Shown here piece after piece: positions 11,612 through 28,470 of a stretch of 64,000 nt of DNA. The stretch's first letter is position 1. Every line of letters starts with the position of its first letter. The stretch lies in assembly GCA_028293545.1 (NCBI GenBank), contig JAQGOP010000010.1, positions 1-64,000 of the forward strand, written 5' to 3'. The position numbers and the translations under genes were made by a program. The notes under the pieces are model-generated. The model had not been told where the DNA came from. It made no database searches and saw only the letters and a list, made by a program, of their open reading frames with translations. The stretch is from Verrucomicrobiota bacterium (GTDB taxonomy: Bacteria; Verrucomicrobiota; Verrucomicrobiia; Opitutales; Opitutaceae).

Positions 11612-11662
11612 TCGCGCGAAAAAACTCAATTCGCGGTTGCCTCGGGGCGGAATCATCCTTTC

Positions 11663-11682
11663 GTGCAAGCAACCACTTGCAC
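11663..11682. promoter_or_regulatory. Probable operator of the TetR regulator
   Basis: A perfect 7-6-7 inverted repeat, GTGCAAG-N6-CTTGCAC, ends two bases before the ATG of the TetR gene. Size, symmetry and place are typical of a TetR-family self-operator. Binding there would block transcription of the regulator and the efflux genes behind it. Confidence 0.65.
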
Positions 11683-11684
11683 AC

Positions 11685-12302: not shown

Positions 12303-12309
12303 CCCGCCC

Positions 12310-13923
12310 GTGAGCGCCGAGTCCAAAGGCCTGTACGGGTCCGATCCCACCCTGCTCTCGCCCATCGCGGCGCGGCTCGCCGAGCGGGGCATCCTCAAAT
12401 GGGTCATCGCCATCACTGCAGCCTTGGGCGCCATCCTGGAGGTGATCGACACCAGCATCGTCAACGTCGCGATGCCCGACATCCAGAGCAACCTGGGCGC
12501 CACGCTGACCGAGGCCGGCTGGATTTCCACCGGCTATGCCTGCGCCAACGTCGTGATGATTCCGCTCACGGCGTGGCTCAGCGACCGGTTTGGCCGGAAA
12601 CAATACCTGCTTTTTTCGCTGGTCGGTTTCACCGCGTCGTCGGTGCTCTGCGGGCTCTCGACCAGCCTGAACATGTTGATCGTGGCGCGCGTGCTCCAGG
12701 GTCTCTGCGGCGGCGGACTGCTGGCCAAGGCCCAGTCGATGCTCTTCGAAACTTTTCCCCGCAAGGAGCAGCCCGCGGCGCAGGCCATGTTCGGCATCGG
12801 CGTCATTGCCGGGCCGGCCCTCGGGCCGGTGATGGGCGGTTACCTCACGGACACACTCGGTTGGCGCTGGATTTTCTTCATCAACCTGCCGGTCGGGATC
12901 TTTGCCGTGATCATGACGATCATCTTCCTGCCCCGCGACGTGAAGGAGTCGCTCAAAGACAGCCTGGTCGACTGGTGGGGGATTGGGCTGCTGGCGGTGG
13001 GGCTCGGCTGCTTCCAGACCTTCCTTGAGGAAGGTCACCAGGAAGACTGGTTCAGCTCGAATTTCATCATCCTGGTTTTCGCCGGCGCGCTCATCGGCCT
13101 GGGCCTCTTTGTCTGGCGGGAGCTGTCGATCGACTATCCCGCGGTCGATCTTCGCGTGCTGCGCCACCGGTCGCTCGCGGCGGGGAGCGCGTACTCACTT
13201 GTCCTCGGCATGGGACTCTACGGGGTGATGTTCGCCGTGCCCGTGTTCGTGCAGGACTACCTGCATTTCACCGCGACGCAGAGCGGGCTGCTGCTGATGC
13301 CCGGCGCGATCGCTTCCGCGTTCATGATGATCGCGATGAGCAAGATCACCGACCGCTTCGATCCGCGGCTCCTCATTTCGATCGGGGCGCTGATCATGGT
13401 CGCGGCGGCGACGTTCCTGTCGCGGATCAATCCCGACACGAGCACCCAGTCCCTTTTCTGGCCGCTGGTCCTGCGGGGCGCCGGCACGGTGATGATGTTT
13501 CTTCCGCTCAGCCTGGCGACGCTCGGCAACCTGCCGCGCCAGGATCGCGCGGCCGCCTCGGGTTTCTACAGCCTCGCGCGCCAGATGGGCAGCAGCATCG
13601 GGATCGCCGTGATCACCACCGCGCTCGCCCAGCGCGAATCGGTGCATCGCGCCGTCCTCGTCGAGAAGATTTCCAACTTCCAGCCCGCCACGGTCGACCG
13701 GCTGAACCTCCTGGGCGGCGCCTTTGCGCATGGTTCCGCCGACCCGGTCGCGGCGAAGCAGCAGGCGCTGTCGCTGGTCGATCGCCTGGTGAACGGCCAG
13801 GCGCTCCTGCTCTCTTTTTCCGACGTGTTTCTCTACGTCGCGTTCGCGTTCGTCCTGACGCTCCCGCTCCTGCTGCTGCTCGGAAAGGGTGGCGATCGCG
13901 AGGCGGCCGCCTCGGCGCACTGA
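12310..13923 (+). CDS. DHA2-family (EmrB/QacA type) MFS efflux transporter
   Basis: A 537-residue transporter with about 14 membrane segments, starting with GTG at 12310. The motif LEVIDTSIVNVAMPDIQSNL near residues 45-64 (motif D1 of the 14-TM drug exporters), the loop LSDRFGRKQYLL (motif A), and GPALGPVMGGYLTDTLGWRWIFFINLPVG (motif C and after) are clear. It sits between the TetR regulator and the membrane-fusion protein, so together they likely form a tripartite pump; an outer-membrane channel is not present in the window. The substrate is unknown. Confidence 0.93.
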   Translation: MSAESKGLYGSDPTLLSPIAARLAERGILKWVIAITAALGAILEVIDTSIVNVAMPDIQSNLGATLTEAGWISTGYACANVVMIPLTAWLSDRFGRKQYLLFSLVGFTASSVLCGLSTSLNMLIVARVLQGLCGGGLLAKAQSMLFETFPRKEQPAAQAMFGIGVIAGPALGPVMGGYLTDTLGWRWIFFINLPVGIFAVIMTIIFLPRDVKESLKDSLVDWWGIGLLAVGLGCFQTFLEEGHQEDWFSSNFIILVFAGALIGLGLFVWRELSIDYPAVDLRVLRHRSLAAGSAYSLVLGMGLYGVMFAVPVFVQDYLHFTATQSGLLLMPGAIASAFMMIAMSKITDRFDPRLLISIGALIMVAAATFLSRINPDTSTQSLFWPLVLRGAGTVMMFLPLSLATLGNLPRQDRAAASGFYSLARQMGSSIGIAVITTALAQRESVHRAVLVEKISNFQPATVDRLNLLGGAFAHGSADPVAAKQQALSLVDRLVNGQALLLSFSDVFLYVAFAFVLTLPLLLLLGKGGDREAAASAH

Positions 13924-13956
13924 TTTCCCGACCTCCCTTTCAAAAAAAATCCTACC

Positions 13957-15120
13957 ATGAAAACCGCCGCCGACGCTCCTGCTCCTTCCCTTGCCGCGCC
14001 CTTGTCCGTGGAAAAACCCGCCGCCCCCGCCAAGGCGAAGAGCATCCCAAGCTCGCGGAATCGTTACCTCGGGCGCGCCACCCTCGCGGTGATTGCCGTC
14101 GCTGTTCTCCTCTGGGGCGGACGCGCGGGGCTGCATACTTATCGCTACGTCGAAACCGACAATGCGTACGTCGTCGGGCATTTTCACCAGGTCAGCCCGC
14201 AGCTCGACGGGCAGGTAAAGGAGGTCCTCGTGCAGGACAACCAAGTCGTGAAGGCCGGCGACCCGCTGGTGCGCCTCGATACGCAGGAGTTTGAGATCGG
14301 GGTGGAAAAAGCCCGCGCCGCCGTCGCCCAGGCCGAGGCGCAGGACAAGGAAACCATCGCCGCCCTCGCCCAGTCCCGCGCGGGGCAGGCGGAAGCACGC
14401 GCGAAGGTGGCGCAGGCCGCGGCCCAGGTCGCGCAGACGCAGGCCCAGCTCGACCTCGCCCAGCTCACCCTCGGGCGCAACGAACAGCTTTTCCGCAACA
14501 GCGGTTCGACGACGCAGGCGGAACTGGACAACGCCAAGGCCGCCGCCGATGCCGCGCTCGCGAATTTCCATGCGGCCAACGCCAATCGCGACGCCGCGCA
14601 GGCCGCGGTGGATTCGGCCGCCGCCTCGTTCGCCGCCACGGAAGCCCAGGTCACGGCCGCCAAGGCCAACGTCGCGGCGGCGCAAGCCGCGTTGAGCGAT
14701 GCCCAGCGCAAGCTGGCTTATACGACCATCACAGCTCCCAACGATGGACGCATCGGCAACAAAAGCGTCGAGCCCGGCAATCGCGTGCTCGCGGGCCAGA
14801 CGCTGCTCGCATTGGTGGAGCCGAACGTGTGGATCGTCGCCAACTTCAAGGAAACGCAGCTCCCGCGCATGCACGTCGGGCAGGAAGTGGAACTCGCCGT
14901 CGATGCACTGCCCGGGCTCAAGCTCCTCGGGAAAATCGACAGCCTTGCTCCCGCGAGCGGCGCGCTCTTTGCGCTGCTGCCGCCCGACAACGCCACCGGC
15001 AATTTCAACAAGGTGGTCCAACGCATCCCGGTAAAGATCCTGCTCGCATCCGACAGCCAGGAGGCGGCCTCGCTGCTGCGGGTTGGTTACTCGGTCGTGG
15101 TGAACGTGCGCGTGCGGTAA
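13957..15120 (+). CDS. HlyD/EmrA-type membrane fusion protein
   Basis: A 387-residue periplasmic adaptor. One membrane anchor (YLGRATLAVIAVAVLLWGG, about residues 37-55) is followed by YVETDNAYVVGHFHQVSPQLDGQVKEVLV, the typical start of the biotinyl-lipoyl domain, then a long alanine- and glutamine-rich coiled coil (about residues 110-245) and a closing barrel with NVWIVANFKETQL. The coiled coil is longer than average and almost purely Ala/Gln/Glu, which suits a tall hairpin reaching the outer membrane. It lies 33 bases after the EmrB-type gene. Confidence 0.93.
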   Translation: MKTAADAPAPSLAAPLSVEKPAAPAKAKSIPSSRNRYLGRATLAVIAVAVLLWGGRAGLHTYRYVETDNAYVVGHFHQVSPQLDGQVKEVLVQDNQVVKAGDPLVRLDTQEFEIGVEKARAAVAQAEAQDKETIAALAQSRAGQAEARAKVAQAAAQVAQTQAQLDLAQLTLGRNEQLFRNSGSTTQAELDNAKAAADAALANFHAANANRDAAQAAVDSAAASFAATEAQVTAAKANVAAAQAALSDAQRKLAYTTITAPNDGRIGNKSVEPGNRVLAGQTLLALVEPNVWIVANFKETQLPRMHVGQEVELAVDALPGLKLLGKIDSLAPASGALFALLPPDNATGNFNKVVQRIPVKILLASDSQEAASLLRVGYSVVVNVRVR

Positions 15121-15280: not shown

Positions 15281-18200
15281 CTACTTCGTGCCTTCAGTCG
15301 TTTCCGACGGACGGCGCTCGAGGCGCTGGCGCGGAACGGGCTGGACCGCCTTGGCGGGTTCGGTGACGAACGCGTCGGTCGGCTTGATTTCCCCGTCATC
15401 CGTCCCGCGCAATTTTCCGTCGCGGACCTTTACGTCGTCGACGCGGAAGAATTCTCCGCGACCCGAATCGTGGCGCAGGAACTGGTTGAACTCGTCCAAA
15501 TGGAACGGTCGCGAGCCCCGGCGCCCAAACACCACGGTTTGGTTCCCGCTCTCGTCGACCACGCGGTCGCGATCCAAGCCGCGCGAGATGGCGACCGCCG
15601 GACCGTGCGTGGGATAACTTGAAATCAACTTCGGGTTCGGCGGCGGGCTGAAGCCTTGGTAACCGGGGACATTTTCCGGCGAGATCAGCTGGAGCACGCG
15701 CAACCCGTTGCGGCCGTCGGCGACGAGCGCGAACATCGAGGCGTTGACCGCGCCGACCTGGACTGCGCGCGTGTCGCTGAGCGCGCCGTCGGCGTTGTAC
15801 ATCGAGAAGAGCTTCGGCGTCCGGGGATGCTTGATATCGATGATCGCGAGGCCTTCCGCACCGTTCGCCACGTAAACAAACGTGCGCGCGGCGTAGAGGC
15901 CCTGCGCATCCTTCAAGGGCACGGTGGCTTCGGGCAACGGCTTGGGCGCGATCGGATCGGTGAGGTCAAACACCTTCAGGCCGTCCTCGTCAGTGATGAA
16001 GGCATACTGGAATTGCACCGCGAGTTTCCGCGGGTGTTTCAAAGACCCGGCCGGGGATTCGCCCGCGATCCTCGGCTTCGTCGGATCCGAAATATCCACC
16101 ACGAAAAGGCCCGCGGTCGAAATCACATACAGGTGGTTGCCCGCCATGTAGGCGTGGTTCGCACCGGTGAGAAGGCCCTCGGGATTGAAACGCACGGTGT
16201 CCTTTTCCGAGAGGAAATTATTCGCCGGGTTCCCGTCCACCAAGGTACCGACCGGGACGACGACAAGGCCTTCGTCGCGATCGGTCACATATACGAACGC
16301 GTAAACTGGGCTGATCGGCTGCTCCTCGTTTTCCGGGAGGTGGGTGCGGAGCGGATCGATGCCCAGCGTGCTCGGCAGCACGACGCTCGTGGCGTAGCTG
16401 GTCTTGATGTGCGTGCGCTGGCCGAGCGGCGATACCGGCGCGCTGACGATGCGCTCGGAAAAACCCTTGTTGTCGATGTTCGCGACATCGAAGACTTCGA
16501 AGCCGCCCGGGCCGTTCGCGGTGTAGAGGTATTCCCCGCGGAGGGCCAGATCGAGGATCTCCTTGCCGTCGTGGTGATATGCCTCCTGCAGCACACCCTT
16601 GTTCTGTCCCACGTGCTGCTGGTAATTCGACGGGTAGGCCAGGCGCTGGAGATGGCTGCCGAGCGCGGCCTGGGGCTCTTCCTGTTCGGTCCAAGCCACC
16701 GCGTTGAATCCATCCTCGCCCGTTCCGACCCAAGCGAAGCGTCCAAAGAAATTCACGGTGCCCGTGCCGAAACCGAGCAGCTGCGTCATCCAGGCGTTGT
16801 TGTCGCCGGCGGTGGAAAGATGGCAGTCCGTGCAGCCCTTCGTCGTGCCGACGCTGCTGGTTGTATGTGGGAAATGCGGATTGAAGGCCTGCCCGCTGTA
16901 ACCTTCCGCCGAGACGGTCTGCTGCTGGGAATAAACCCATTCGCGATTCGAATTCTGGGAGCCGACAATCACCGCGCTCGATGAACGCAGGATCGCGAGC
17001 CGGTGGTCCTTGTAGGTCGCGTCCTTGCCGAGCATGAAGACGTCGTCGCGCACCACCTGGGGATTATAGCTGGTGTAATTCCTCGTGTCGCCGCCCTCGA
17101 ATTTATTGAGGGGCATTTTTTTGTTCGCACGCATCGGCATATGGCAGCCGAAGCAGCTGGTGGCCCAGGCGGTGTGGCAAATCTGGCAGCCGATGTTCGA
17201 ATTGCTGTGCGCGAGCCCGGCGTGCGGATCGAGATTCGGCGCAGCCCCGGCGGAATGATCGTCGACGAGGGCGTCGGCCTTCCCGGCCGCCGGCGTGGCC
17301 GCGACCGGCAGGCTGCCCCACGTCTTGCCATCGCGGCGGAGCGTTTTGGCGTAGGCGGAAAGTGGATTATAATGCGCCGAGGTCGGGTCGACGGTGTCGC
17401 GCGTCTGCGGGACTTCCCACTCCCGGTCGGCCTGCATCATCGAGCGCTGGAAAAGACGGTTGCCCTGCCAATAAAAACGCGGGCCCCATGGGGTCGTGCC
17501 CTGCGAGAGATCGTTGGGCAGCACCTGCCCATTTTCGAGCTTACCGCTGTTGCCGCTGGTCTTGAGCGTCGGGCGCTGGTCGATCGTGCCGTGGCAGTCG
17601 ATGCACTCGATTGCGGTCGCCGCGCGGGGTTCGCCATAGAGCAGGCCGTTGCCGTGGACATCCGTGGTGAAATGGCAGTCGACGCACTGCATGCCGCGCG
17701 CGAGGTGGACGTCCTTGAGGTGGATCGCCTTCGCGAATTTTTCCGGGTCCGTGTGGTCAATGACTTTGTCGTCGAGCGTGAGCAGGTTGCCCTCGCGATC
17801 CTTTTTAAAGACCGCGCGGAAGACCCAGCCGTGCCCGTGGTAATCGGCAAACTGCGTGTCCTTGAGCTTCGGATTCAGCTCGGCGACCTTTTCAAGGAAT
17901 TCCGGATTGCCCCAGAGCCCGCGCGAGGCGGCCGCCTCGGGATTGCGGCGCAGGGATTCCGCCGTTTCCTGTTCCGTCGGGTTCTTCTGCTCCTTCGGGT
18001 ACATGAATTCGCCGTCGCTCTCCTGATCCCACCACGTGTAGCCGAGGTACGGGTTCACGAAGAGGTTTCCCTGGTGCATGTGGCAGTTCATGCACTGGCT
18101 CGAAGGAATGCTGCGGGTGAACTGGTGACGGATGGGATGCCCGCGCTCCTTCTTCGAAATCATCGGGTCGGAGGTGAAGCTCAGGCCTTGGTGGCCGTAT

Positions 18201-19255
18201 TTGGACCACCATCCGGAATTCGTCGGCGAGCGATCGTTCGCGTAAACGACGTGGCAGGCGGTGCAGCCCGACGAGCGATAATCGCCCGGGTGATTGTTTG
18301 AGCCCATGAACCCGAGCAGCGGATCGTGCAGGCGGGTTTTTTGCAGGTTGAGATAAACAGGATCGATGCGGTTGAGCGTGCCGAGGCCGCGCTCGCTGAG
18401 ACGGCGGGCGGGCCGGCCCGGCGGTTCGAACGCATTGGGATTCCCGATTTCGGTCTGCTTCTCGCCACCCTGTTCGAAAATCCGGAGGACATTGCTCGGC
18501 TGGGACATGGCGAAACGTGGCAGCGGATCGAGGTAAGGCAGGACCCCGCGCTTCAGGGTCATTTCCGGCGTGACCGGGATCGGGCTTTCCAGGCGCAACG
18601 GCGCGCCGTCGAGTCCGTAGGCCTGGCCATAGCGGTAGTCCTTCGAAGGACTGGCGCCGTTGTTATAAAGTGCCGCGCCCCAGAGCATCGCACCGTGGTT
18701 CATCATGCTGTGGCCGACAGCTTCGTTGATGCTGCCGTGGCAAAGCCCGCACGCCTGCTGCGCGACGCGGAGGTCGCCGGGATTCACAAACTGGATAAAT
18801 TCGGCGGACTCGTGGTTGAGCAGGACGGTCGATTCGCTCGGGTTCGCCGAGCTTTCCCAGAATACCGGGTTGCGCGGCGCGACGTGGGCCTTGCGCATCG
18901 TCAGGCCCGGCGTCGGGTTGCCGCCGTGGCAGTCGGTGCAGCCAAGCACGACATTCGGCGACGCGTGCATGTCCTCGATGTTCTGGTGGCACTCGATGCA
19001 GCCGGCGCTCTTCTGGTGCGCATCCTCGCGCGTCTGGTCGATCAGGTTGCGCGGCTTCGCGGCGGCGCGATCGACCGGTGGTTCGGCGGAACGCGGCACG
19101 GAAATCCTCGGCCCGAGGGCGGAGTCCGCCGACGCCACGGGCGATTCGGCCGGTTGCCCCAAAACCACCAATGCGACCAAGCCAGCGCCCCAGGCCGCCA
19201 CCGCGGGAAGCGCCCACCGGAATATCCGACCTGAATCTTTGGTGGAAGGCATCAT
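15281..19255 (-). CDS. Decaheme cytochrome c fused to a LVIVD-repeat beta-propeller
   Basis: A 1324-residue exported protein. The N-terminus has an uncleaved-looking signal anchor (RWALPAVAAWGAGLVALVVLG). Ten CxxCH heme c sites follow within about residues 85-830: CIECH, CTDCH, CGLCH, CTACH, CMNCH, CVDCH, CIDCH, CQICH, CFGCH and CTDCH. From about residue 900 there are LVIVD-type propeller blades, such as YLYTANGPGGFEVFDVANI, LYVISTAGLFVVDISDPTKP and FVYVANGAEGLAIIDIKHPR. Its start overlaps the stop of the outer-membrane barrel gene by one base, making it the last gene of the six-gene electron-transfer operon. It probably faces the cell exterior or docks on the barrel; partner and acceptor are inference. 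Confidence 0.9.
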   Translation of the reverse strand: MMPSTKDSGRIFRWALPAVAAWGAGLVALVVLGQPAESPVASADSALGPRISVPRSAEPPVDRAAAKPRNLIDQTREDAHQKSAGCIECHQNIEDMHASPNVVLGCTDCHGGNPTPGLTMRKAHVAPRNPVFWESSANPSESTVLLNHESAEFIQFVNPGDLRVAQQACGLCHGSINEAVGHSMMNHGAMLWGAALYNNGASPSKDYRYGQAYGLDGAPLRLESPIPVTPEMTLKRGVLPYLDPLPRFAMSQPSNVLRIFEQGGEKQTEIGNPNAFEPPGRPARRLSERGLGTLNRIDPVYLNLQKTRLHDPLLGFMGSNNHPGDYRSSGCTACHVVYANDRSPTNSGWWSKYGHQGLSFTSDPMISKKERGHPIRHQFTRSIPSSQCMNCHMHQGNLFVNPYLGYTWWDQESDGEFMYPKEQKNPTEQETAESLRRNPEAAASRGLWGNPEFLEKVAELNPKLKDTQFADYHGHGWVFRAVFKKDREGNLLTLDDKVIDHTDPEKFAKAIHLKDVHLARGMQCVDCHFTTDVHGNGLLYGEPRAATAIECIDCHGTIDQRPTLKTSGNSGKLENGQVLPNDLSQGTTPWGPRFYWQGNRLFQRSMMQADREWEVPQTRDTVDPTSAHYNPLSAYAKTLRRDGKTWGSLPVAATPAAGKADALVDDHSAGAAPNLDPHAGLAHSNSNIGCQICHTAWATSCFGCHMPMRANKKMPLNKFEGGDTRNYTSYNPQVVRDDVFMLGKDATYKDHRLAILRSSSAVIVGSQNSNREWVYSQQQTVSAEGYSGQAFNPHFPHTTSSVGTTKGCTDCHLSTAGDNNAWMTQLLGFGTGTVNFFGRFAWVGTGEDGFNAVAWTEQEEPQAALGSHLQRLAYPSNYQQHVGQNKGVLQEAYHHDGKEILDLALRGEYLYTANGPGGFEVFDVANIDNKGFSERIVSAPVSPLGQRTHIKTSYATSVVLPSTLGIDPLRTHLPENEEQPISPVYAFVYVTDRDEGLVVVPVGTLVDGNPANNFLSEKDTVRFNPEGLLTGANHAYMAGNHLYVISTAGLFVVDISDPTKPRIAGESPAGSLKHPRKLAVQFQYAFITDEDGLKVFDLTDPIAPKPLPEATVPLKDAQGLYAARTFVYVANGAEGLAIIDIKHPRTPKLFSMYNADGALSDTRAVQVGAVNASMFALVADGRNGLRVLQLISPENVPGYQGFSPPPNPKLISSYPTHGPAVAISRGLDRDRVVDESGNQTVVFGRRGSRPFHLDEFNQFLRHDSGRGEFFRVDDVKVRDGKLRGTDDGEIKPTDAFVTEPAKAVQPVPRQRLERRPSETTEGTK

Positions 19256-21636
19256 TAGTAAGTCAACGTCACCGCGGCGACTGCGCTATAAAGCCAGTTG
19301 TCGACCTTGGAACTCAAGCCTGCGGGTGTGAACCCCGGCACCGTGGGTTGCACCGTCCGGTAGATATCGCGGAAGCCCCGCGCCGGCAGCAGCACGCCGA
19401 ACCCGGTCGAGAAAACGATGTTGTCCGTCAGCAGCGGCCGCCATTGTACGCCCAGGCTAAGGTCCGTGCCAAAACCGCGGCCGACCTGGTTCGTCAGCAG
19501 GACCGTCTGGATCGAATCAACGTCATCGAACGTGAGATAATTCGCGTTGAGGAAAGCGCGCACCTTGGGCGTGACCTCGATGTCGGCGCCCACCCCGGCC
19601 ATGCGCAGGCCCGGGTTCACGAAGTTGGCCTGGCCCTCGGTTTTGCTCGTGCGGATGTTGGGCAGCAGGCTGAAGCGCTGCTTCAGATTCAACGCCGTGC
19701 CGGCGAGGTTGAATCCCTGCCGCACGTAATAACTGAAGGGCCCGCCCACGAAATTGGTGTTGTCCACGATCGAATCGAAGCCGGTCGCGCGGTCATCCTT
19801 CGCATTGCCGTCGCCCGAGGCCCAGAACACCGAGGCCTTGTACCGGATCCAGTCGCGATCGTAGCTGATCTCCGCCGCAGCCATCTCCCCGCGAATGCGC
19901 ACCGGCCGGCCAGCGATGCCGTTGAAATCGTCGCGGCCAAAGGCGGCATACATCGCGTGCGAAATATTCCAGCGCCCGACGTGGCCGTCGCCAGCCCAGC
20001 CGAGGTAGCCGACATTCACGTGGTGGGATTTGACGTCACCGATCGGGGCCGGGCGGACGATCGAACCGTTGGTGTCGTAATAGGTCGCGCCGGAATCGAA
20101 ATTGAAATGGACGCTCGCCTGCGCGGTGTAGCCGTGGACGAGGAAATCCTGGCGGTAGACGTTGGCGATCACGACGCGCTGATCGCGCTGGTTAAACGTG
20201 TTCAGCTCCGAATTCGTGTCCTTCTCGCGCAGGTCGAAATACGCGAGGTTGTACTGCCAGCGGTTGTTCCCGGCATTCCCGAACAGGCGAATGCCGAGGT
20301 TCGTGTCGTTGAAAATGAAGCCGCGAAAATCGCTGTTGAAAGCCTGGTTGCCGGCCTTGAGCGCCATGAAGTCGTAGTTCTCGGAGAGATCCTTGAGGTG
20401 CACCTCGACGAAGGCCTCCTGGAGCGAGATGTAATTCTTGTCCCGATGCGTCGCGCTGGTGTCGATCACCGCCGGCGTCTTCAGGCCGGGATTGAGAATC
20501 ACATCGACGTCGCCCGGATTGACCACGCCGCTGTTGTTGGGCGGGGCGGCGCCGCCGCCGCTGACATTGCCGCGCGGATCCGGTGAGACGAGGGTTTCGC
20601 GAAGATCGACGCGCGTGAAATTGATCACGGGCTTCACGCGCACGAGCCATTCCACCGGCTTGAAAACGGTCTCGCCGCGAAACAGGTCGGCCTGCATCCC
20701 GAAATTCATCGAGAAAACCTTCGAGCGGCTGTCGCCGAAGAAATCAAAACTGCCGGGCCGGGACGCGCTCACTCCACTGGGCAGGGTGATTTTCCGGTCT
20801 TCGTAAACCAAGTCGGCCGTGGCCGTGAGGTTCAGGAAAAGATCCTGCCCATGGATCGGCACGTCGCCCTTCAGGATACTCTGCCGGTAATAGTGCCAGA
20901 GATCCGGCTTCGCGTGGTAATATGGAAGCTCGTTCACATCGCCGCTGGTGTAACGCCGCCACGGGTAAAACGGCGCCTGGCGCCAGCGATCGGGCATCGG
21001 CACCATGCCGGCCGGCACCTGGCCTTCGCCCTTGCGCGACAATAAATATTCCTCGGGCGCGTGCCACGGCTTGGAAATGAACTGGTTCTCCCGCGTCCCG
21101 GCGCGCGGGAGCTTCAGGTCGTCGGGCACCGGGTCGAGCCCGTCGCGCGGAGCCTGGCCCGTCGCCCTGGGTGTCGCCTCGATGCGCGTGCTCTCGAGCG
21201 GACCGCGCGGAAGCGCGCGATCGGCAGGCACGTCGTCAAGCTCAGGCACAGTCGGCACCGCGACCCTGTCCGATTCAAAATACGGTTGTTCCTTTTCCTT
21301 CGGCGCGCCACTGGCCGCGCCGGGGTCGGGATTGAAGTCCTTGGGCGGTTTGGCGGCCGGTTCCACGTCCCGCGTACGACTGGCCTTCAGCTCGGGTGCT
21401 TCTGCCGAGGTCGTCGCCGGCGGCAGCGCTGCGCCCGAGTCGGGATTCGCTTCCGCGGGGGATTTGGGCGGGGGGGTCTTGTCCACGCGCTGGTGCTTCC
21501 GCGCCTCGTCCGCGGGAATGTCGCGTTCGCCCGGGGCGGGCGCGGCCTGCGCGCGGGCCGCGGGCGCAAGCCAACCAAGGCACATGGCCGCGAGAACGAT
21601 AACCCGCCAGACGGGCGATTTCCTGGTCCTGCTCAT
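19255..21636 (-). CDS. Outer-membrane beta-barrel protein of the multiheme cytochrome operon
   Basis: A 793-residue protein with a cleavable signal peptide (MSRTRKSPVWRVIVLAAM to APAARAQA). Residues about 30-190 are rich in Pro, Lys and acidic residues. The rest alternates short polar and aromatic stretches typical of barrel strands, and the last residues TLTY end in an aromatic residue, as outer-membrane assembly signals do. The ATG at 21636 is used because it gives the signal peptide and overlaps the upstream decaheme gene by four bases. By position, between an inner-membrane-tethered and an exported decaheme cytochrome, it is a candidate porin sheath as in MtrB-like conduits, but I see no obvious sequence match to MtrB. 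Confidence 0.8.
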   Translation of the reverse strand: MSRTRKSPVWRVIVLAAMCLGWLAPAARAQAAPAPGERDIPADEARKHQRVDKTPPPKSPAEANPDSGAALPPATTSAEAPELKASRTRDVEPAAKPPKDFNPDPGAASGAPKEKEQPYFESDRVAVPTVPELDDVPADRALPRGPLESTRIEATPRATGQAPRDGLDPVPDDLKLPRAGTRENQFISKPWHAPEEYLLSRKGEGQVPAGMVPMPDRWRQAPFYPWRRYTSGDVNELPYYHAKPDLWHYYRQSILKGDVPIHGQDLFLNLTATADLVYEDRKITLPSGVSASRPGSFDFFGDSRSKVFSMNFGMQADLFRGETVFKPVEWLVRVKPVINFTRVDLRETLVSPDPRGNVSGGGAAPPNNSGVVNPGDVDVILNPGLKTPAVIDTSATHRDKNYISLQEAFVEVHLKDLSENYDFMALKAGNQAFNSDFRGFIFNDTNLGIRLFGNAGNNRWQYNLAYFDLREKDTNSELNTFNQRDQRVVIANVYRQDFLVHGYTAQASVHFNFDSGATYYDTNGSIVRPAPIGDVKSHHVNVGYLGWAGDGHVGRWNISHAMYAAFGRDDFNGIAGRPVRIRGEMAAAEISYDRDWIRYKASVFWASGDGNAKDDRATGFDSIVDNTNFVGGPFSYYVRQGFNLAGTALNLKQRFSLLPNIRTSKTEGQANFVNPGLRMAGVGADIEVTPKVRAFLNANYLTFDDVDSIQTVLLTNQVGRGFGTDLSLGVQWRPLLTDNIVFSTGFGVLLPARGFRDIYRTVQPTVPGFTPAGLSSKVDNWLYSAVAAVTLTY

Positions 21637-23339
21637 TTCGAGGGGCTGTCGCGCCACGCTGCGGGCGGCGTGTTGTGGTAGTTGTGGCACTCGGTGCAGC
21701 TGAAGTTCACGCCGCCTTTCGGGCTGTGGCATTCCACGCAACTCTGCTGGGTCGGCATGATAATGTCCGAGGTCAGCTGGCTGCGTTCCGCCGAATGGCA
21801 TTTCGTGCAATCGACCTGGACGTGCTTCGAATGGTTGAACCGCGCGTGCGGCATCCAGCGATCCGGCATCGCGGGCGGCGTGATTTCGGGGACGCTGCTG
21901 CCCGGCTTCGGCGTGACCTCGTGGCAGTACGCGCAACCGGCAAAGCTCGCGCGGCCGGAGCCGTCGAGGCCGCTGATCCCGGTGGCGGGCGTCTTCTTGC
22001 CACCGCTGAAAAAGACCTGCTGCTCCAGCATTTCGCCGGTGCGGACGCGGGTGCGGAGGTTCGCCATCTGCTCCTTCACGAAATTATCCACCTCGGTGCT
22101 GCTCGTGATGCCGAGGTCGCGCGTCGCATGCTGGGCGTATTGCACGGGCAGGCTGCGAAGGTAGGCGCGCACGTAGGTGGCGTCGCCATGCGGGAGCTGC
22201 ATCGTCGGGTTGCGCTCGTCGAACTGGAGCGAATGGCACGCGCGGCAATTCTGTTCGAATGAAACCGGGCGCATGAATGCGCCGGAGGTGTCGACCTGGT
22301 GGCAGGACGCGCAGTCGAGCCGCTTGCCGTTCAACAACGGGATGTCACCGGTCAGATGCCGCGCGTGGTTGAACGCCAGGGTGTCCGTGTCGCTGACTTG
22401 GGCCCGGTTGACGAGGAAGTCGGGGTGATCCTTGGCGAACGACTGGATGACCTTGGTGAAACCGGCTGCGGGGCGCTCGATCGCAAACTGGACCGTACCC
22501 GGCATCGTCACCTTCGCGAAAAACTCGTGGGGCATTCCGCGGCCTTTGCGATCCGCCTCGGCCATCTGCCCGATGTCGCCGTGGCAGTCCGTGCAATTCT
22601 GCATGGCAACCGCCGGCAGCGGACCGCCGCCCTTGTGTTCCATGTGGCAGACCGAGCACGCGGTTTCGCGCGGCACGTTCGCCTCGTGGAACGATTCGTT
22701 CTTGTGGCACGCGATGCAGGTCGCATCCATGCGCGTGAAATCCTTCGGGTGGTCTGAAACCAGGTTCGCGAACTGGAGGGAGCCTTTGCCCGCCCGGAAC
22801 GCCGCGCGGGTCCAGCGGGCGAGTCCGTTCGACGCCTCGTGGTGGCAGGCGACGCAACCCTGGCCGGGGTTGCGCGTGACGGACGCGGCCATCTTTTCAA
22901 ACTCCGGGCCCGTGTGATGCGAGGAAAGCGTGCCGGGATTGATGAACGAATCGCGCGCCGGCCCCGTCAACGCGATGAGCAGGCCGGCGATGCTCGCCGC
23001 GATCACGCCGCGGACGACGAGCCCGCGCTTGTTCCTCAGGCTGCGCACGGGCTGGCACTTCGGGATCGTCTTGCAGCAGGTGCCATCGGGATTGGGGCCA
23101 ATCTCGCAGGTGCCGCCCCACTCCTTCGGCCGCGTGCATCGCCACGTGCCCTTCGTTTCACCGGGCAATACTTGGAGCTGTGGCTTGCACTCGGTCGTGG
23201 CCCGGCACTCGCCCTTGTGGCTCGGCCCAATGCGGCACGGGCAGCCTTCGCACGCGTGCCCGCAAATCCAGTCCTTGTTCGGCCGCTCGTAGCGGGAGCG
23301 ATTGAAATCCGGCGAGGGGGTGCGGCCGTCGTCGTTCAT
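21633..23339 (-). CDS. Membrane-tethered decaheme cytochrome c with Cys-rich cytoplasmic N-terminus
   Basis: A 568-residue protein in three parts. Residues about 24-95 are cytoplasmic and hold about a dozen cysteines in a repeated pattern (CGHACEGCPCRIGP; ECRATTECKP; WRCTRP; CEIGPNPDGTCC), not in heme motifs. One membrane segment follows (GLVVRGVIAASIAGLLIALTG, about 105-125). The periplasmic part has ten CxxCH sites: CVACH, CIACH, CSVCH, CTDCH, CASCH, CRACH, CAYCH, CTKCH, CVECH and CTECH. The gene overlaps the b-type membrane protein gene and the barrel gene by four bases each. It most likely passes electrons between the membrane cytochrome b and the outer-membrane module. The Cys-rich head may bind metal or an iron-sulfur cluster; this is inference. 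Confidence 0.9.
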   Translation of the reverse strand: MNDDGRTPSPDFNRSRYERPNKDWICGHACEGCPCRIGPSHKGECRATTECKPQLQVLPGETKGTWRCTRPKEWGGTCEIGPNPDGTCCKTIPKCQPVRSLRNKRGLVVRGVIAASIAGLLIALTGPARDSFINPGTLSSHHTGPEFEKMAASVTRNPGQGCVACHHEASNGLARWTRAAFRAGKGSLQFANLVSDHPKDFTRMDATCIACHKNESFHEANVPRETACSVCHMEHKGGGPLPAVAMQNCTDCHGDIGQMAEADRKGRGMPHEFFAKVTMPGTVQFAIERPAAGFTKVIQSFAKDHPDFLVNRAQVSDTDTLAFNHARHLTGDIPLLNGKRLDCASCHQVDTSGAFMRPVSFEQNCRACHSLQFDERNPTMQLPHGDATYVRAYLRSLPVQYAQHATRDLGITSSTEVDNFVKEQMANLRTRVRTGEMLEQQVFFSGGKKTPATGISGLDGSGRASFAGCAYCHEVTPKPGSSVPEITPPAMPDRWMPHARFNHSKHVQVDCTKCHSAERSQLTSDIIMPTQQSCVECHSPKGGVNFSCTECHNYHNTPPAAWRDSPSK

Positions 23340-24163
23340 CGGGAACCTCCGGAAAACGCATAGACCAGGATCACGTGCACCGCGCTGAAAATCAGGAGGC
23401 CATACGTCAGTGGGATGTGCACGAAGAGCCAGCCCTTCAGCACCAGTTGCGAGGCCCGCTGGTAATCCATTGCATCCTTCTGCCGGATCAGGTCGGCCAT
23501 CTGGTCGGCGTTCACCTGCTCCACCGAGGTAAGGTAACGCTTGGTCGAAACCAAGTCACCCAGCAGCGCGCTGAGGCGCCGGCGGGAATTGACAAAGCTC
23601 GGCCAGAACGCCTGCGGCGCGGAAAAGAAACCGCTGAGCTCGCGCGTGTAGAAATCCGCCAGGGTGGTCGCCTGCGACTCCGCGATGCCCTTCAACGCCA
23701 GCGCCTCGGCCTTGGCCTGGAGATCCCGCCGGATGATCGGGATGCGCTCGTACAGGACTTCGCCGCCGGTCGTGGTCATGCGCTTCGGGATGACCCGGGA
23801 AATCCACCAGCCAAAAATGCCGCTCAGCGTTACGCCGACAAACAGCCAGGCCAGCGTCGACTCGAACCAGCCGGTCGGGACGCGCCATTTCAAATGCAGC
23901 ATGAACATCAAGCCGGTGAACAGCCCCGTGTAGACGTGGATCTGGAACCACGCGCGCGAGCTGAACAGCGGGAGGAATGCCAGTTTCTTCCGGGCGTTAT
24001 ACCCCGTCAGCGCGATCATCAGGCCGAAGAGGACCCACCCCGTCACATACACCAGGAGCGGGAGCGTGGAGCGAAAACGCTCATACTCCCAGATCGCGAG
24101 GAACGATGCGCCCAACAGGACACACGTCAAAGCCACGCGCCGAAGGGCAAGTCGGGGAATCAT
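23336..24163 (-). CDS. Di-heme cytochrome b-like integral membrane protein
   Basis: A 275-residue protein with about five membrane segments (near residues 10-27, 34-55, 72-92, 104-122 and 244-270). Two helices carry paired histidines 14 residues apart: His76 and His90, and His249 and His263. This is the usual arrangement for two b hemes stacked across a membrane, as in ferric reductases and formate dehydrogenase gamma subunits. A soluble stretch of about 115 residues separates helices four and five. The gene overlaps both neighbours by four bases. It is the natural link between the cytoplasmic iron-sulfur protein and the tethered decaheme cytochrome. Confidence 0.85.
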   Translation of the reverse strand: MIPRLALRRVALTCVLLGASFLAIWEYERFRSTLPLLVYVTGWVLFGLMIALTGYNARKKLAFLPLFSSRAWFQIHVYTGLFTGLMFMLHLKWRVPTGWFESTLAWLFVGVTLSGIFGWWISRVIPKRMTTTGGEVLYERIPIIRRDLQAKAEALALKGIAESQATTLADFYTRELSGFFSAPQAFWPSFVNSRRRLSALLGDLVSTKRYLTSVEQVNADQMADLIRQKDAMDYQRASQLVLKGWLFVHIPLTYGLLIFSAVHVILVYAFSGGSR

Positions 24164-25884
24164 CGTTTCAACCAGCCCACGAGGTCATCGAGGGTGTTTA
24201 GGTTCATCCGCTTCAGGGCATCATGCGGGCAGGCGCGCACGCAGGCCGGCCCGCCGTATTGGTCGATGCACAGGTCGCACTTCGTTGCCTTCATGATCGG
24301 TTTCGCGTCGCTCGCGATCAGGATTTCGCCGTCGGTCGAACGCTGTTCGACCATGCGGATGGCTTCGTAGGGGCAATTGTTCGCGCAGGTCGTGCAGCCG
24401 ATGCAGGTCGCCGGGTTGATCACGACCTCGCCTTCAAAGGCGTCGCGGTGGATCGCACCCGTGGGACAGCCCACCATGCACACCGGGTCCGCACAGTGCA
24501 TGCAGGCCTGCGCGATCATGATGTTGTCGTGGATCGGGCCGTGGCGCAGGAAACGCGGGTTGTTGTCGTGCGTGCTCGCACACGCGCGCACGCAGTCGTC
24601 GCAACGTGTGCAGCGGTCCATGTCGATGACCATGGTTTCGGTGCCGTTGAAAAAACGATTCTGCGTCAGGAACTCCATCAGGTCCGGCCCCACGCGCGGC
24701 GCCGAGTCCTCGGCCGCGGTTTCATCCTTCAAGGCGAAGGGCGACGCGGTGTCCTGGCTTTCGGTCTCGATCAGCGGCGGCAGTTCATTCTCCGGGATCG
24801 CCGGCAGGACAAACTCCTCAATCACGTTGCCCGGGATCACCAGCACGTGCGTGTAGCCCAGCACGCGCAGCGAATACTGCAGCGAAACTTGGTGTTTCGG
24901 CATGCGCCAGTTGTGCGCGATCTCCTCGAAGCCGTAGGTGCGGCCGGAGCCGAGGTAATTCAAGGTGCGATGGCCGTCGCCCACGCGCTGCGTCATGCGC
25001 GCGAAACCCGCGCGGATCATCACGACGCTGTTCGGGTAATCGCCTTCGCTCGCGACGATCTGCTCCTTCGCCGCCGCGGCGCCCGATTGCGCCAGCTTCT
25101 TGTACTCGCCCGACCAGTCGTAATCGCCGTAGGTTTCGAACTGCGTCGCCTTCATCACCTGCTGCTTGGCCTCTTCGGAGAGGTACTTCATGAACGGGAT
25201 TTCCGCGAGGTAGGTCGAGAGAGCGCGCTCGCGGTAGATGCCGTCGATGTATTCGCGGACGCGGGCATCGTTCCGCATCAGGTCGCGCAGTCCCTGCCAG
25301 CGGATCTCGAACAACTCGGTGGCCGGGCCGCGCGCAAAAATCGTCGACGTGCGCGGCATGCGGGACAGCGCCGCGATTTCACCGAAGAAACTTCCCGCGT
25401 GGATCGTGGCGGTCTTGTGCTTGTTCAGGATGACCGGGATGTCCTGGAGAAAAATGTGGTGCTCGTCGTTGCCGCGCCGCTTGAGCCTGACCTTCTGGCG
25501 CTCGACCTCGTCCTCCTTCGAATTGCCCCAGAGCTGGGCGACGGCCTTGAAAAATCCCCGCTTGGCCGGTTCGCGGCGGCCGACGACCGACGGCGGCAGG
25601 TCGGGGTGCAGGACGACTTCCGCGGATCCCGACAGGACCATGAACGCGGAGGTGCCGTAATCGCCTTCGCGGACGATGATCTCGCCGTCCTGGAAAACGC
25701 GCAGGCGCCCGTCGTTGCGAAGGATTTCCTGCAGCGAGGCGCCGCGCGGGAACGTGTCCGGGTTCATGCTCGCGAACGGCTCGATCCGCAGCAGGCGGCG
25801 CACGTCCTCCTCGGTGATTTCCTCGCTGAACGGCGAATCCCAACGCTTGGGCCGCTGTAGTCCCGGTGCGGTCGAAAAGCTCAT
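24160..25884 (-). CDS. Cyclic-nucleotide-binding domain and multi-cluster ferredoxin fusion
   Basis: A 574-residue cytoplasmic protein. The first part contains two CNB-type domains: one with REGDYGTSAFMVLSGSAEVVL and GSFFGEIAALSRMPRTSTIFA (about residues 65-220), and a second, more divergent one (about 225-360) with ASEGDYPNSVVMIRAGFARM. The C-terminal part (about 430-560) has four cysteine groups, CTRCDDCVRAC, CMHCADPVCMVGC, CIGCTTCANNC and CDLCIDQYGGPACVRAC, the pattern of DmsB/HydN-like proteins with up to four [4Fe-4S] clusters. The ATG at 25884 overlaps the reductase stop (TGATG). The fusion suggests electron flow gated by a cyclic nucleotide or another small ligand. Confidence 0.9.
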   Translation of the reverse strand: MSFSTAPGLQRPKRWDSPFSEEITEEDVRRLLRIEPFASMNPDTFPRGASLQEILRNDGRLRVFQDGEIIVREGDYGTSAFMVLSGSAEVVLHPDLPPSVVGRREPAKRGFFKAVAQLWGNSKEDEVERQKVRLKRRGNDEHHIFLQDIPVILNKHKTATIHAGSFFGEIAALSRMPRTSTIFARGPATELFEIRWQGLRDLMRNDARVREYIDGIYRERALSTYLAEIPFMKYLSEEAKQQVMKATQFETYGDYDWSGEYKKLAQSGAAAAKEQIVASEGDYPNSVVMIRAGFARMTQRVGDGHRTLNYLGSGRTYGFEEIAHNWRMPKHQVSLQYSLRVLGYTHVLVIPGNVIEEFVLPAIPENELPPLIETESQDTASPFALKDETAAEDSAPRVGPDLMEFLTQNRFFNGTETMVIDMDRCTRCDDCVRACASTHDNNPRFLRHGPIHDNIMIAQACMHCADPVCMVGCPTGAIHRDAFEGEVVINPATCIGCTTCANNCPYEAIRMVEQRSTDGEILIASDAKPIMKATKCDLCIDQYGGPACVRACPHDALKRMNLNTLDDLVGWLKR

Positions 25885-27179
25885 CAGGCGTCGATCACAA
25901 GGTTCCCCTTGGGCTTGCAGATACACGTGAGGCAGGAGCCGGTTTCCGCCTCGGCGCCGTGGCCGCCGAGGTACTCGACGGCGCCGGATTTGACCGCCAC
26001 GAGGCACGAGCCGCAATTGCCCGCCCGGCAACCGGCGTCGATCTTCACGCCCTTGGCCTCAGCCAGCTCGAGCAGCGACGAGTACGCCTGATCCCACCAA
26101 ACCTTTTGTCCCGACTTCGCGAACGTCACTTCCATCCCCACGAACGGCGCAGCGGTGAGCGAGGCTTTTACCGCCGGGGTCGCCACGCGTTTCACGCTCG
26201 CCGGGCCGAAGGCTTCGAAATGCACCCATTCGTCGGGCACGCCCCAAGCGCGCAGGCCGTCCGTGATCGACTCCATGAACGCGCCGGGGCCGCACAGGAA
26301 ATAATCGTAGTTGTTCGACGGAAGCAGCTTCCTGAAAAGCTCCACGCTGACGCGGCCCTCGTGGTGAAAATCGCGGCCCATCACTTCGTCGGCGCTCGGG
26401 CGGCTGTAGCAGATATACAGGCGGAGGTTCTTGTATTTGGCCGCGAGCTCGTCGACCTCCTGCTTCAGCATGTGCTCCGTGCGGTTGCGCGCGCCGAAGA
26501 AAAACCAGATCTCGCGGTCCGCCTTCGCTTCAAAAAGCGCGTTCGCCATCGCCACCATCGGCGTGATCCCCACGCCGCCGGAAATCAGCACGATCGGGCG
26601 CTCCTTCTCGATATCGAGGAAGAAATGCCCGTTCGGCGCCTTCACGTCGAGGATGTCGCCTTCCTTCACCGCATCGCAGAAAAACGACGAGCCCACGCCC
26701 GGCGGATGCGCCGAGTCCGGCGGCGGCGGGCACCGCTTGATCGTGACGCGGTAATAATCCGGGCGCGCGCTGTCGGAGAGCGAGTAGCAGCGGACGATCG
26801 GCTTGGTCGAACCGGGCAGGCTGAGTTGGAAGGTCAGGTACTGGCCGGGCTTGAACGCCGGCAGCTGCTTCCCGTCGTGCGGCCGCAGATAGAAGGAAAA
26901 CGTGTCCGCGCATTCGGGCACTTTGCGCGCCACCTTGAACTTGCGGATGCCGTTCCACGCCGACTTCGCGAGCTCGACGGATTGCACGCGTTTCCGCGCC
27001 GCGCGGATTTCCAGGGCGAGCCGCTGCTGCTCCAGCGTGCCACGCTTGACCTCGTAGTGGGCGCGACGCGCGCCGGCGACGACCATCAGCCCGACCTGCA
27101 AGACGAGGCCACCTAAAATGACCCAGCCCGCGACCTGCACGGGATTCTCCATTATGAAGCTCGGAAATTCGGCAAGCAT
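25884..27179 (-). CDS. Membrane-anchored flavin reductase with [2Fe-2S] ferredoxin domain
   Basis: A 431-residue oxidoreductase. One N-terminal membrane helix (about residues 14-36) anchors it. The FAD-binding barrel holds the RCYSLSDS motif, the nucleotide domain the ISGGVGITPMVAMANAL loop and CGPGAFMESI near the end of the reductase part. A C-terminal plant-type ferredoxin has CRAGNCGSC and a further Cys in SCLTC, enough for one [2Fe-2S] cluster. The layout resembles NqrF and oxygenase reductases with the domains reordered. As first gene of the six-gene operon it is the likely entry point for electrons from NAD(P)H, or exit point if flow runs inward. Confidence 0.9.
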   Translation of the reverse strand: MLAEFPSFIMENPVQVAGWVILGGLVLQVGLMVVAGARRAHYEVKRGTLEQQRLALEIRAARKRVQSVELAKSAWNGIRKFKVARKVPECADTFSFYLRPHDGKQLPAFKPGQYLTFQLSLPGSTKPIVRCYSLSDSARPDYYRVTIKRCPPPPDSAHPPGVGSSFFCDAVKEGDILDVKAPNGHFFLDIEKERPIVLISGGVGITPMVAMANALFEAKADREIWFFFGARNRTEHMLKQEVDELAAKYKNLRLYICYSRPSADEVMGRDFHHEGRVSVELFRKLLPSNNYDYFLCGPGAFMESITDGLRAWGVPDEWVHFEAFGPASVKRVATPAVKASLTAAPFVGMEVTFAKSGQKVWWDQAYSSLLELAEAKGVKIDAGCRAGNCGSCLVAVKSGAVEYLGGHGAEAETGSCLTCICKPKGNLVIDA

Positions 27180-27285
27180 GGTGGAAGAGAAAGACAGAAG
27201 GATAAGGAAAGGAAGACGATACCGGCGGTTTCTGCTTGTAGATAAAATTGCGCCGGCCTTGTTATGAGTACAATAGATTCTTCCG
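27180..27285. promoter_or_regulatory. Divergent promoter region of the cytochrome locus
   Basis: This 106-base gap must hold the promoters of the six-gene operon (leftward) and the tetraheme gene (rightward). Rightward, a TACAAT box (27269-27274) lies 15 bases after TTGCGC (27248-27253), which would give an almost leaderless tetraheme transcript. A purine-rich stretch occupies 27180-27215. No clear binding-site palindrome was found. Confidence 0.4.
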
Positions 27286-28470
27286 GTGAACTATCATTTT
27301 TTACGCCTTGTGCCTGCCGTCCTGAGCGCCGGTGCCCTGGCTTTCCCCGCAGGCGCTGCACCCACCGCCGGGAATGAAATTGCCGGGTTGATCCACGGGC
27401 CGTCGACCTGCTCGACCAGCGGTTGCCATGGCGGGGCCAGCGAACGCAGCCGCCAATATGTGATCTGGTCGCAGCGCGACGTTCACTCGCGTTCTTATAA
27501 TACCCTCACCAGCGCCCGCTCCGCGCGAATGGCAGAGGCGCTGAAGATCGACAACCCCACGAAAAGCGCCACCTGCGCGGCGTGCCACGCCCCGCTGCAG
27601 ACGGTCGAGCCAACCTTTCTCGCGGCCAACGCCCACCCCGAGGATGGCGTCAGTTGCGTGACGTGCCACGGCGTATCCACCGACGACTGGCTGCGGAGCC
27701 ACACGCGTCCGGACTGGACGCATCAGGACCGCGTCGCGGCGGGCATGCGCGACCTGCGCAATCTTTATATCCGCGCGAACAGCTGCGTCGCCTGCCACCA
27801 GAACATCGACCCGCAACTCGTGAAGGTCGGACGGCATCCCCAGCTTATTTTCGAACTCGACGGCCAGGCGGTGAGCGAGCCCAAGCATTGGACCGAGGCG
27901 GCCAACTGGCAGGGTGGCCAGGCGTGGTTCGTCGGGCAGGCGGTCGCGCTCCGCGAAATGAGCTGGGCGCTGGCGCATGAACGCACCGACGCCGATCTCG
28001 ACGCCCCGCGCTGGGCCGGCTTGCTCTGGCTTCTCCAGCGCTGCGATGCGGGCGATGCCCTGCCGCCTATCGCCGCGGTTTCCAACGAGGCCAGCCAGGC
28101 TTCATATGCGGGCGCGATGGATCAGGCCGATGTCATCGCGCGCCGCGGAGCGGAAATCACCTGGTCATCCGATCTCACCAAGACCCTGGTGAAAAAACTC
28201 GCCGCAACGCATCCCGATTTTCTCGATGCGGCGACGGCGCAGCCGGTCCAAGCCCGCCGCGCCGAACGCCTCGTGCTCGCATTGGATCGTTTGCTGGCCT
28301 CGCTGCCGGTCGCGCAGCGTCCGCCGGCAGCGGGCGCGCCGCTCGACAAACTTTTCCAGCTCGCGCAGTCGGTCCCCGACTTTTCGCCGAAGGATTTTGC
28401 CCGCGAATTGGCCGCGTTCGAGATGGCGCTGAATCCGGTGGCGGACGCCAAAGTCGCTTCGCGCGACTAG
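27286..28470 (+). CDS. Tetraheme cytochrome c554-like protein
   Basis: A 394-residue exported protein with GTG start at 27286 and signal peptide (LVPAVLSAGALAFPAGAAP). Four heme sites lie in the first about 170 residues: one atypical CSTSGCH with four spacer residues, then CAACH, CVTCH and CVACH. The CX4CH plus CxxCH order is that of the cytochrome c554 / multiheme domain group. The C-terminal about 200 residues are helical and heme-free. It is transcribed away from the six-gene operon and probably serves as a soluble periplasmic carrier for the same electron path. Confidence 0.88.
   Translation: MNYHFLRLVPAVLSAGALAFPAGAAPTAGNEIAGLIHGPSTCSTSGCHGGASERSRQYVIWSQRDVHSRSYNTLTSARSARMAEALKIDNPTKSATCAACHAPLQTVEPTFLAANAHPEDGVSCVTCHGVSTDDWLRSHTRPDWTHQDRVAAGMRDLRNLYIRANSCVACHQNIDPQLVKVGRHPQLIFELDGQAVSEPKHWTEAANWQGGQAWFVGQAVALREMSWALAHERTDADLDAPRWAGLLWLLQRCDAGDALPPIAAVSNEASQASYAGAMDQADVIARRGAEITWSSDLTKTLVKKLAATHPDFLDAATAQPVQARRAERLVLALDRLLASLPVAQRPPAAGAPLDKLFQLAQSVPDFSPKDFARELAAFEMALNPVADAKVASRD

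Follow-up and report, generated by a model that had tools for sequence, protein, structure and literature searches.

How could electrons held by cytoplasmic NAD(P)H cross the envelope of a bacterium without passing through the quinone pool? The question is raised by seven genes at positions 15281 to 28470 of the window, by which we mean the whole stretch of 64,000 nucleotides analysed here (a Verrucomicrobiota bacterium of the family Opitutaceae, assembly GCA_028293545.1, contig JAQGOP010000010.1, positions 1 to 64,000). A first-pass annotation of this DNA had read six of these genes as a complete electron path from the cytoplasm to the cell surface, perhaps one that runs inward. We find that the operon is probably, though by no means certainly, an NAD(P)H-driven chain that exports electrons across the envelope and bypasses the quinone pool. 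The conduit reading is strong for the inner half of the system and for the partnership of that half with the barrel-cytochrome pair, and is partly supported overall. Trans-envelope electron transfer is a known kind of system, and what is new here is the unusual entry module together with an undescribed protein domain. The entry enzymes of described conduits use quinol, which ties those conduits to respiration; a system fed by NAD(P)H and binding a cyclic nucleotide (cNMP) would, if our reading is true, provide a separate route for shedding reducing power or for reducing external compounds. By their titles, the related records come from lakes, bogs and groundwater and from lineages of SAR324, Nitrospinota and planctomycetes, so that the system may be widespread in the environment.

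An operon in the order of a proposed electron path

The genes are the following, in window coordinates.

25884..27179, minus strand: G1, NAD(P)H:FAD:[2Fe-2S] reductase of 431 amino acids (FAD, flavin adenine dinucleotide), with the Pfam domains FAD_binding_6, NAD_binding_1 and Fer2 and an N-terminal membrane anchor at about residues 16-34 by hydropathy
24160..25884, minus strand: G2, cNMP-binding protein fused to a 4x[4Fe-4S]-type ferredoxin, 574 amino acids, with Pfam cNMP_binding and Fer4 families (4Fe-4S dicluster)
23336..24163, minus strand: G3, putative di-heme b membrane protein of 275 amino acids, from hydropathy and the positions of His 76/90 and 249/263
21633..23339, minus strand: G4, inner-membrane-anchored decaheme c cytochrome of 568 amino acids, with 10 CxxCH motifs, a single transmembrane segment (106-124) and an N-terminal 8-Cys domain
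19255..21636, minus strand: G5, outer-membrane-type beta barrel of 793 amino acids with a terminal Tyr, from an AlphaFold2 model and Foldseek, with a signal peptide seen by eye
15281..19255, minus strand: G6, decaheme c cytochrome of 1324 amino acids, with 10 CxxCH motifs and a C-terminal LVIVD beta-propeller (E-value 1.9e-17)
27286..28470, plus strand: G7, divergent tetraheme c554-type cytochrome with three CxxCH and one CX4CH (Cytochrome_C554, E-value 1e-10), separated from G1 by a gap of 106 bases

The six minus-strand genes run from 27179 to 15281 with consecutive overlaps of 1, 4, 4, 4 and 1 bases: G1/G2 have one base in common, G2/G3, G3/G4 and G4/G5 four each, and G5/G6 one (position 19255). 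The coordinates, strand and overlaps given by the first-pass annotation all check out, and the gene identities that it proposed agree with the families, the heme-motif counts and the barrel model of G5. The redox domains of G1-G6 (Pfam, NCBIfam and CxxCH counts) are arranged along the operon in the order of the proposed electron path, and the Pfam matches of G4 are to c7/c3-type hemes. Two details have been amended. The barrel gene kept its identity and had its start corrected to 21636, which gives the 793 residues listed; and the tetraheme gene, which does lie divergently next to G1, is not merely a neighbour, the conserved set being one of seven genes with G7 included.

The inner half of the system

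The operon had been credited with an entry module of its own for soluble nucleotides, and the flavin, NAD and [2Fe-2S] domains of G1 bear this out. The ferredoxin part of G2 contains 16 Cys in four groups of four, 15 of which are kept in 74/74 aligned homologs and the other in 72/74. Its first cNMP domain (Pfam cNMP_binding, E-value 3e-22) retains G217 and E218 in 74/74 and R227 in 73/74 of them, these residue numbers being counted from a longer open reading frame that starts at TTG. The phosphate-binding cassette of cNMP-binding proteins is a GE plus Arg motif. This motif and the 16 ferredoxin Cys are conserved across phyla among the homologs of G2, which is predicted to bind the nucleotide, in keeping with the ligand-binding ferredoxin suggested earlier. 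Class III nucleotide cyclase genes (PF00211) were detected in nine of the ten host genomes examined, with seven matches in the window's own genome.

G3 has exactly four His, in the two pairs listed above, each 14 residues apart, and all four are invariant in 11/11 aligned homologs. In cytochrome b and in the ferric reductases, His paired in this way, 14 apart, hold two hemes stacked across the membrane, and we infer that G3 likewise binds two hemes b, as its annotation as a di-heme b protein implied. No Pfam or NCBIfam family matched G3 above cut-off (there was a sub-threshold match to DUF4405 only), and its profile found no match of note among solved structures.

The part of G4 that precedes the transmembrane segment is rich in Cys and was aligned separately.

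22983..23303, minus strand: part of G4 used in the 8-Cys alignment

Its eight Cys are invariant in all 17 rows (the window and 16 other loci), and a CxxGPxxxGxC motif is present in all 74 of the G4 sequences chosen; the homologs of G4, like those of G7, were picked by similarity, and the conservation counts hold for the chosen rows. Searches with this stretch gave no supported family in Pfam (three single-member matches, the best at E-value 0.028) and no convincing match in the PDB (best E-value 0.38). A profile of it matched 4 of 115 genomes of the phylum, once in each, and all four carry the inner half (at most 43 candidates were scored per genome). We conclude that this is an undescribed domain. 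As positive residues immediately precede the transmembrane segment, the domain is suggested to lie in the cytoplasm. A distant relative of G4, at locus L027, lacks it.

Recurrence in other genomes

G3 was matched, at an E-value threshold of 1e-5, in 14 of the 288 genomes that made up our sample of the phylum. Five further genomes of the family (L017-L021) have the six genes in the same order; four of them also have G7, and the contig of the fifth begins just before G1. G6 is present in nine of the 288 genomes, all nine within the 14 that have G3, an overlap with a hypergeometric probability of 6e-14, or 4e-10 when counted by genera, relatedness being ignored in both. Together with the cross-phylum relatives described below, the five same-order genomes answer in the positive one of the two points on which the first-pass annotation had made the conduit depend, namely that its genes occur together elsewhere. 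The inner half (the core in what follows) and an outer half are generally found together; three genomes of the same family, to which we return, have the core without either outer half.

The named relatives that we describe are the best 80 of 148 matches to the G3 alignment in the genome_contigs collection. Most are by title metagenome-assembled genomes (MAGs) of Verrucomicrobiota, one, IMCC26134, is a complete genome, and the other record titles name Planctomycetota, SAR324, Nitrospinota, Latescibacterota, Hydrogenedentota, Alpha- and Gammaproteobacteria. When these 80 loci, five others and the window were profiled with the seven genes and two type-B families (see below), G2 was found in 85 of the 86 loci, G4 in 84, G1 in 73 and a G7 homolog near the core in 69, many of the contigs being short. 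The inner half is thus kept as a unit across phyla.

Some of these records call for separate comment. L045, L048 and L055 are titled Akkermansia muciniphila; their G2 proteins group with that of IMCC26134 in the tree described below, and they are apparently mislabelled lake MAGs. In one genome (G121; loci L030 and L025), a copy of the b protein and the cNMP-ferredoxin with in-frame stops lies on one contig; in a second copy, on a different contig, the cNMP-ferredoxin frame is whole and G1 and G4 are in pieces. In three distant genomes with G6, G5 and G6 are neighbours on one contig and the relative of the inner half lies on a different one. Two loci (L027:7292-11723 and L029:8005-12543) hold a three-gene module of cNMP-ferredoxin, a longer b protein and a decaheme cytochrome, with no flavin reductase beside it; the b protein of L027 carries a Pro-rich insert, and both genomes have G5-G6 elsewhere. 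The CysJ-like reductases seen near G5-G6 in two distant genomes were considered and set aside as probably unrelated assimilatory genes.

Two outer halves for one inner half

Two unrelated outer halves accompany the inner half. Type A is formed by G5 and G6, which lie either downstream of G4 or on the upstream side, past G7. Type B consists of a barrel of about 480 amino acids and a five-heme protein of roughly 620-820 amino acids, and is located near G1 and a tetraheme cytochrome with regular motifs; the one five-heme protein that was scanned has a c554 domain. Three such modules, each a five-heme protein plus a barrel of about 480 amino acids beside the core, are the following.

L082:2017-5673, type-B outer module
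L090:2320-5790, type-B outer module
L101:1587-5061, type-B outer module

No Pfam match was obtained for three type-B barrels, and no NCBIfam match for the one tried. The titles of type-B records name Planctomycetota, SAR324, Nitrospinota, Pseudomonadota and some Verrucomicrobia.

Classed by how their cores resemble one another, the 80 named loci divide into 51 of type A and 29 of type B. These labels derive in part from likeness to the genes of the window and in part from the same searches that then count the loci; the G2 tree and two cross-controls, G6 in type-B genomes and the five-heme protein in type-A genomes, are more independent checks. G6 is in view in 22 of the 51 type-A loci (partial at contig ends in four, L042, L048, L067 and L076) and was found elsewhere in the genome for all 29 remaining ones, where 'elsewhere' often reflects short contigs and some of the matches are in pieces. 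As a control, G6 was present in 3/29 type-B genomes (L077, L079 and L098). The type-B five-heme protein was present in 3/29 type-A genomes (28 named ones and the window's own) and in none of four further ones, and the three mixed type-A genomes are L039, L064 and L069. Of 11 type-B core loci with no five-heme protein in view, seven belong to genomes that contain it; it is also present in G121 and in G126, and over the whole search for it in 9/20 genomes.

In a tree of 83 G2-type proteins, the type-A rows fall into one clade (Shimodaira-Hasegawa-like approximate likelihood ratio test, SH-aLRT, 97) and the type-B rows all fall outside it. The clade has 51 rows, one of which (L110) is a long branch without a label; the tree was built in quick mode, with long branches flagged. 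By descent, then, the outer half goes with the inner half, as partners do. The exceptions are the mixed genomes and the three same-family genomes mentioned above (G155, G075 and G122, with core loci L023, L024 and L026, respectively).

The barrel and its cytochrome

The other point on which the first-pass annotation had made the conduit depend was the fold of G5. An AlphaFold2 model of G5, built with 22 homologs, has about 18 long strands after residue 260, with a mean predicted local distance difference test (pLDDT) score of 54 and 241 of the 793 residues at 70 or above. In Foldseek, AlgE was the best among the matches listed (E-value 5.5e-13; template modelling score, TM-score, about 0.5 by target), and nearly all of the 50 matches listed are outer-membrane barrels by name, two being titled artificial metalloproteins. 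No Pfam or NCBIfam match was found for G5 at E-value 0.1, and the G5 and G6 profiles gave nothing usable against solved structures. A terminal aromatic residue is expected of outer-membrane proteins; the C-terminal residue is Tyr in 24 of 28 G5 frames and Phe in 16 of 18 frames of the type-B barrel. The model and its structural matches thus uphold G5 as a real barrel. The MtrB barrel has about 26 strands, and G5, whose predicted count is nearer 18 than this Mtr-like number, would be narrower if the count is right, with low-confidence gaps at 346-396 and 609-675 that could hide further strands. In the model of G6, the propeller part is confident and the heme part is not (mean pLDDT 39).

Proposed mechanism and rival explanations

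In the chain that we favour, G1 would oxidise NAD(P)H and hand single electrons via FAD and the [2Fe-2S] cluster to G2, whose four [4Fe-4S] clusters, if all are occupied, would pass them to the pair of stacked hemes b in G3. Through these hemes the electrons would cross the inner membrane and reduce the ten hemes c of the anchored G4. G4 would then span or serve the periplasm together with the tetraheme G7, acting as a periplasmic carrier, and G6 would be the terminal reductase, working with its own barrel G5 at the outer membrane or outside it. The flow would probably be gated by a cyclic nucleotide that binds to G2. The outward direction is the best reading, because the low-potential end of the chain is NAD(P)H and inward flow would have to go uphill with nothing in the operon to couple it. 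The likely use of the chain is redox disposal or the reduction of a specific external acceptor, such as Fe(III), humics or an oxyanion. Energy-conserving respiration by the chain itself is less likely, because electrons moving outward without proton pumping would spend membrane potential.

The operon, the entry module, the ferredoxin motif, the heme b ligands, the barrel and the co-occurrence all speak for the conduit that had been proposed; a strand count unlike that of Mtr and the N-termini of G6 do not. Several observations weigh against an electron path to the cell surface, and most of them concern the outer half. The barrel is modelled with about 18 strands and with AlgE as its nearest structure, at low overall confidence, which makes it doubtful that a heme protein sits inside it. 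In 14 N-termini of G6 inspected by eye, with starts that were assigned mechanically, we saw no clear lipobox, and the N-terminal hydrophobic stretch lacks a uniform cleavage site; G6 may therefore be periplasmic or anchored in the inner membrane. G6 is also the best conserved member of the set, with a mean BLAST identity of 72% to 12 homologs (66% for G1, 65% for G2, 55% for G3, 52% for G4, 54% for G5 and 52% for G7, the last on 11 homologs), and such conservation is more what one would expect of an enzyme specific for its substrate than of a promiscuous wire. As to the linkage of the two halves, three of the nine genomes with G6 match G3 weakly (E-values of 7e-7 to 6e-8), the relative of the inner half is G2-G3-G4 in two of the distant genomes and G7-G3-G4, with no match to G2, in the third, and none of the three has G1 beside it. 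For 4 of the 11 type-B loci mentioned above (L084, L107, L109 and L110) the five-heme protein was not found in the genome, and in the core genomes G075, G122 and G155 neither G6 nor the five-heme protein was found, an outer partner having been sought there and none settled on.

The rival that survives best takes these observations at face value. G6, free or anchored, would be a substrate-specific reductase of the periplasm, reducing a compound that enters through G5 as a solute channel, and no electron would cross the outer membrane. A barrel of about 18 strands resembling AlgE and other solute channels, a G6 that is unusually conserved and its N-termini with no clear lipobox or surface signal all suit this account, and there is a parallel in the Ext cluster of Geobacter, which pairs cytochromes with a porin for which the authors favour a role as a selenite channel (PMC5877670). 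The adjacency of G5 and G6 in distant genomes is conduit-like, and so is the existence of two unrelated barrel-cytochrome pairs for one inner half, although a channel and its reductase would be expected to keep together in the same way. We regard a periplasmic reductase with a substrate-admitting barrel as rather unlikely and nevertheless as a serious rival.

It is also conceivable that G3 oxidises quinol, with G1 and G2 as a side entry or a sensor, and that the operon is one more case of porin-cytochrome respiration. Di-heme b proteins often carry quinone sites. The entry enzymes of the known conduits are quinol oxidases (PMC6295460). This reading is improbable in our view: the four genes G1-G4 stay together in different phyla and overlap in the window's operon, and G3 has neither a Pfam or NCBIfam match above cut-off nor one of note among solved structures. 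No NapC/NirT domain was found above cut-off in G1-G7 (Pfam and NCBIfam; for G1 and G2 the latter among the matches listed).

An inward chain, as the first-pass annotation had allowed, in which G6 oxidises an external donor such as Fe(II) and passes the electrons on to NAD(P)+, is highly improbable: all of the carriers are reversible in principle and the sequence fixes no direction, but the operon shows no coupling device and transfer from a donor above -320 mV to NAD+ would be uphill and opposed by the membrane potential.

NAD(P)H-driven export thus remains the reading that we prefer for the window. We extend it to the other phyla only tentatively, as a quinone-independent export system in which electrons would pass from NAD(P)H through a cNMP-gated ferredoxin, a di-heme b protein and the 8-Cys decaheme cytochrome to either of the two outer modules, with a second messenger switching the flow. 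The host is probably not dependent on the chain in air, because a cbb3-like oxidase and five-heme proteins like those of alternative complex III seem, by eye, to be present in its genome. The five-heme proteins are at L113 (G000:C2) and L114 (G000:C59), and the one on C59 lies beside a 954-amino-acid protein and a membrane protein, an arrangement that by eye is like alternative complex III. Beyond the 3' end of the operon, at 11637-15120 on the plus strand of the window, a TetR-like regulator, a major facilitator superfamily (MFS) exporter and an HlyD-like protein form what by eye is an efflux-like set.

Comparison with known systems

The system nearest in taxonomy is that of the porin-multiheme clusters of freshwater Verrucomicrobia, which include an octaheme periplasmic cytochrome and for which IMCC26134 is named among the genomes with homologs (He et al. 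2017, PMC5615132). The two systems share the phylum and a barrel gene beside multiheme genes, whereas the cytochrome there is octaheme and G4, beside the barrel gene of the window, has 10 CxxCH. IMCC26134 has a relative of the window's operon at about 2.41-2.42 Mb and, about 165 kb from it, a separate cluster at about 2.588-2.593 Mb (L111:8423-13271) with a NapC-type six-heme protein, an octaheme protein (seven CxxCH and one CX4CH) and a porin of 763 amino acids; from the paper's text, this seems to be the cluster of He et al. Its porin and G5 are not alike (best blastp E-value 0.25), and its octaheme protein matches G4 in short heme-motif stretches only (best E-value 8e-5 over 35 residues). 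A porin of this type is found in 14 of the 288 phylum genomes and G6 in nine, four genomes being common to both; it is carried by G122 and G155 and not by G075, and a search of the window's assembly (84% complete) did not find it. With a separate octaheme-porin cluster in IMCC26134, unlike barrels and different distributions, we rejected the identity of the window's operon with that cluster.

With the Mtr, Pio and Mto conduits, which are fed from quinol by CymA, ImcH or CbcL, the operon shares the succession of multiheme cytochrome, barrel and terminal multiheme cytochrome, and it differs in that its entry is a flavin reductase with a ferredoxin and theirs is a quinol oxidase (PMC6295460). CbcL also joins a di-heme b part to a multiheme c part. 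G5 did not match the MtrB/PioB barrel family in Pfam or NCBIfam at E-value 0.1. These libraries include MtrB models. G4 and G6 gave no match at E-value 0.1 to the DmsE/MtrA-type and OmcA/MtrC-type models (TIGR03508/TIGR03507), and G7 alone matches them, at scores well under the cut-off.

The Ext cluster of Geobacter likewise brings together an Fe-S protein (the Rieske protein ExtO), a cytochrome b (ExtP), a decaheme cytochrome, the porin ExtI and further cytochromes, and it differs in having a Rieske protein where the window's operon has a flavin reductase and a cNMP ferredoxin (PMC5877670). Homology to Ext was set aside, as the profile matches are weak and far under the cut-offs, G6 scoring 57.9 of 800 bits against ExtM and a type-B five-heme protein 34.7 of 250 bits against ExtKL; the complete list of Pfam matches for G2 contains no Rieske family, and neither G3 nor G5 has an Ext match in Pfam or NCBIfam.

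By the tests made, the system of the window is neither Mtr nor Ext nor the octaheme porin system of He et al. (2017). We found no description of the operon in the open-licence literature of PubMed Central, an absence that is weak evidence. Its closest functional analogues may be the NOX and ferric reductases and Fre-MsrPQ, in which cytoplasmic NAD(P)H, a flavin and two transmembrane hemes b serve an acceptor on the outside. The chain proposed here would share this working principle and extend it across a second membrane, and it differs from these enzymes in having separate subunits, a ferredoxin relay, multiheme c cytochromes and an outer-membrane part.

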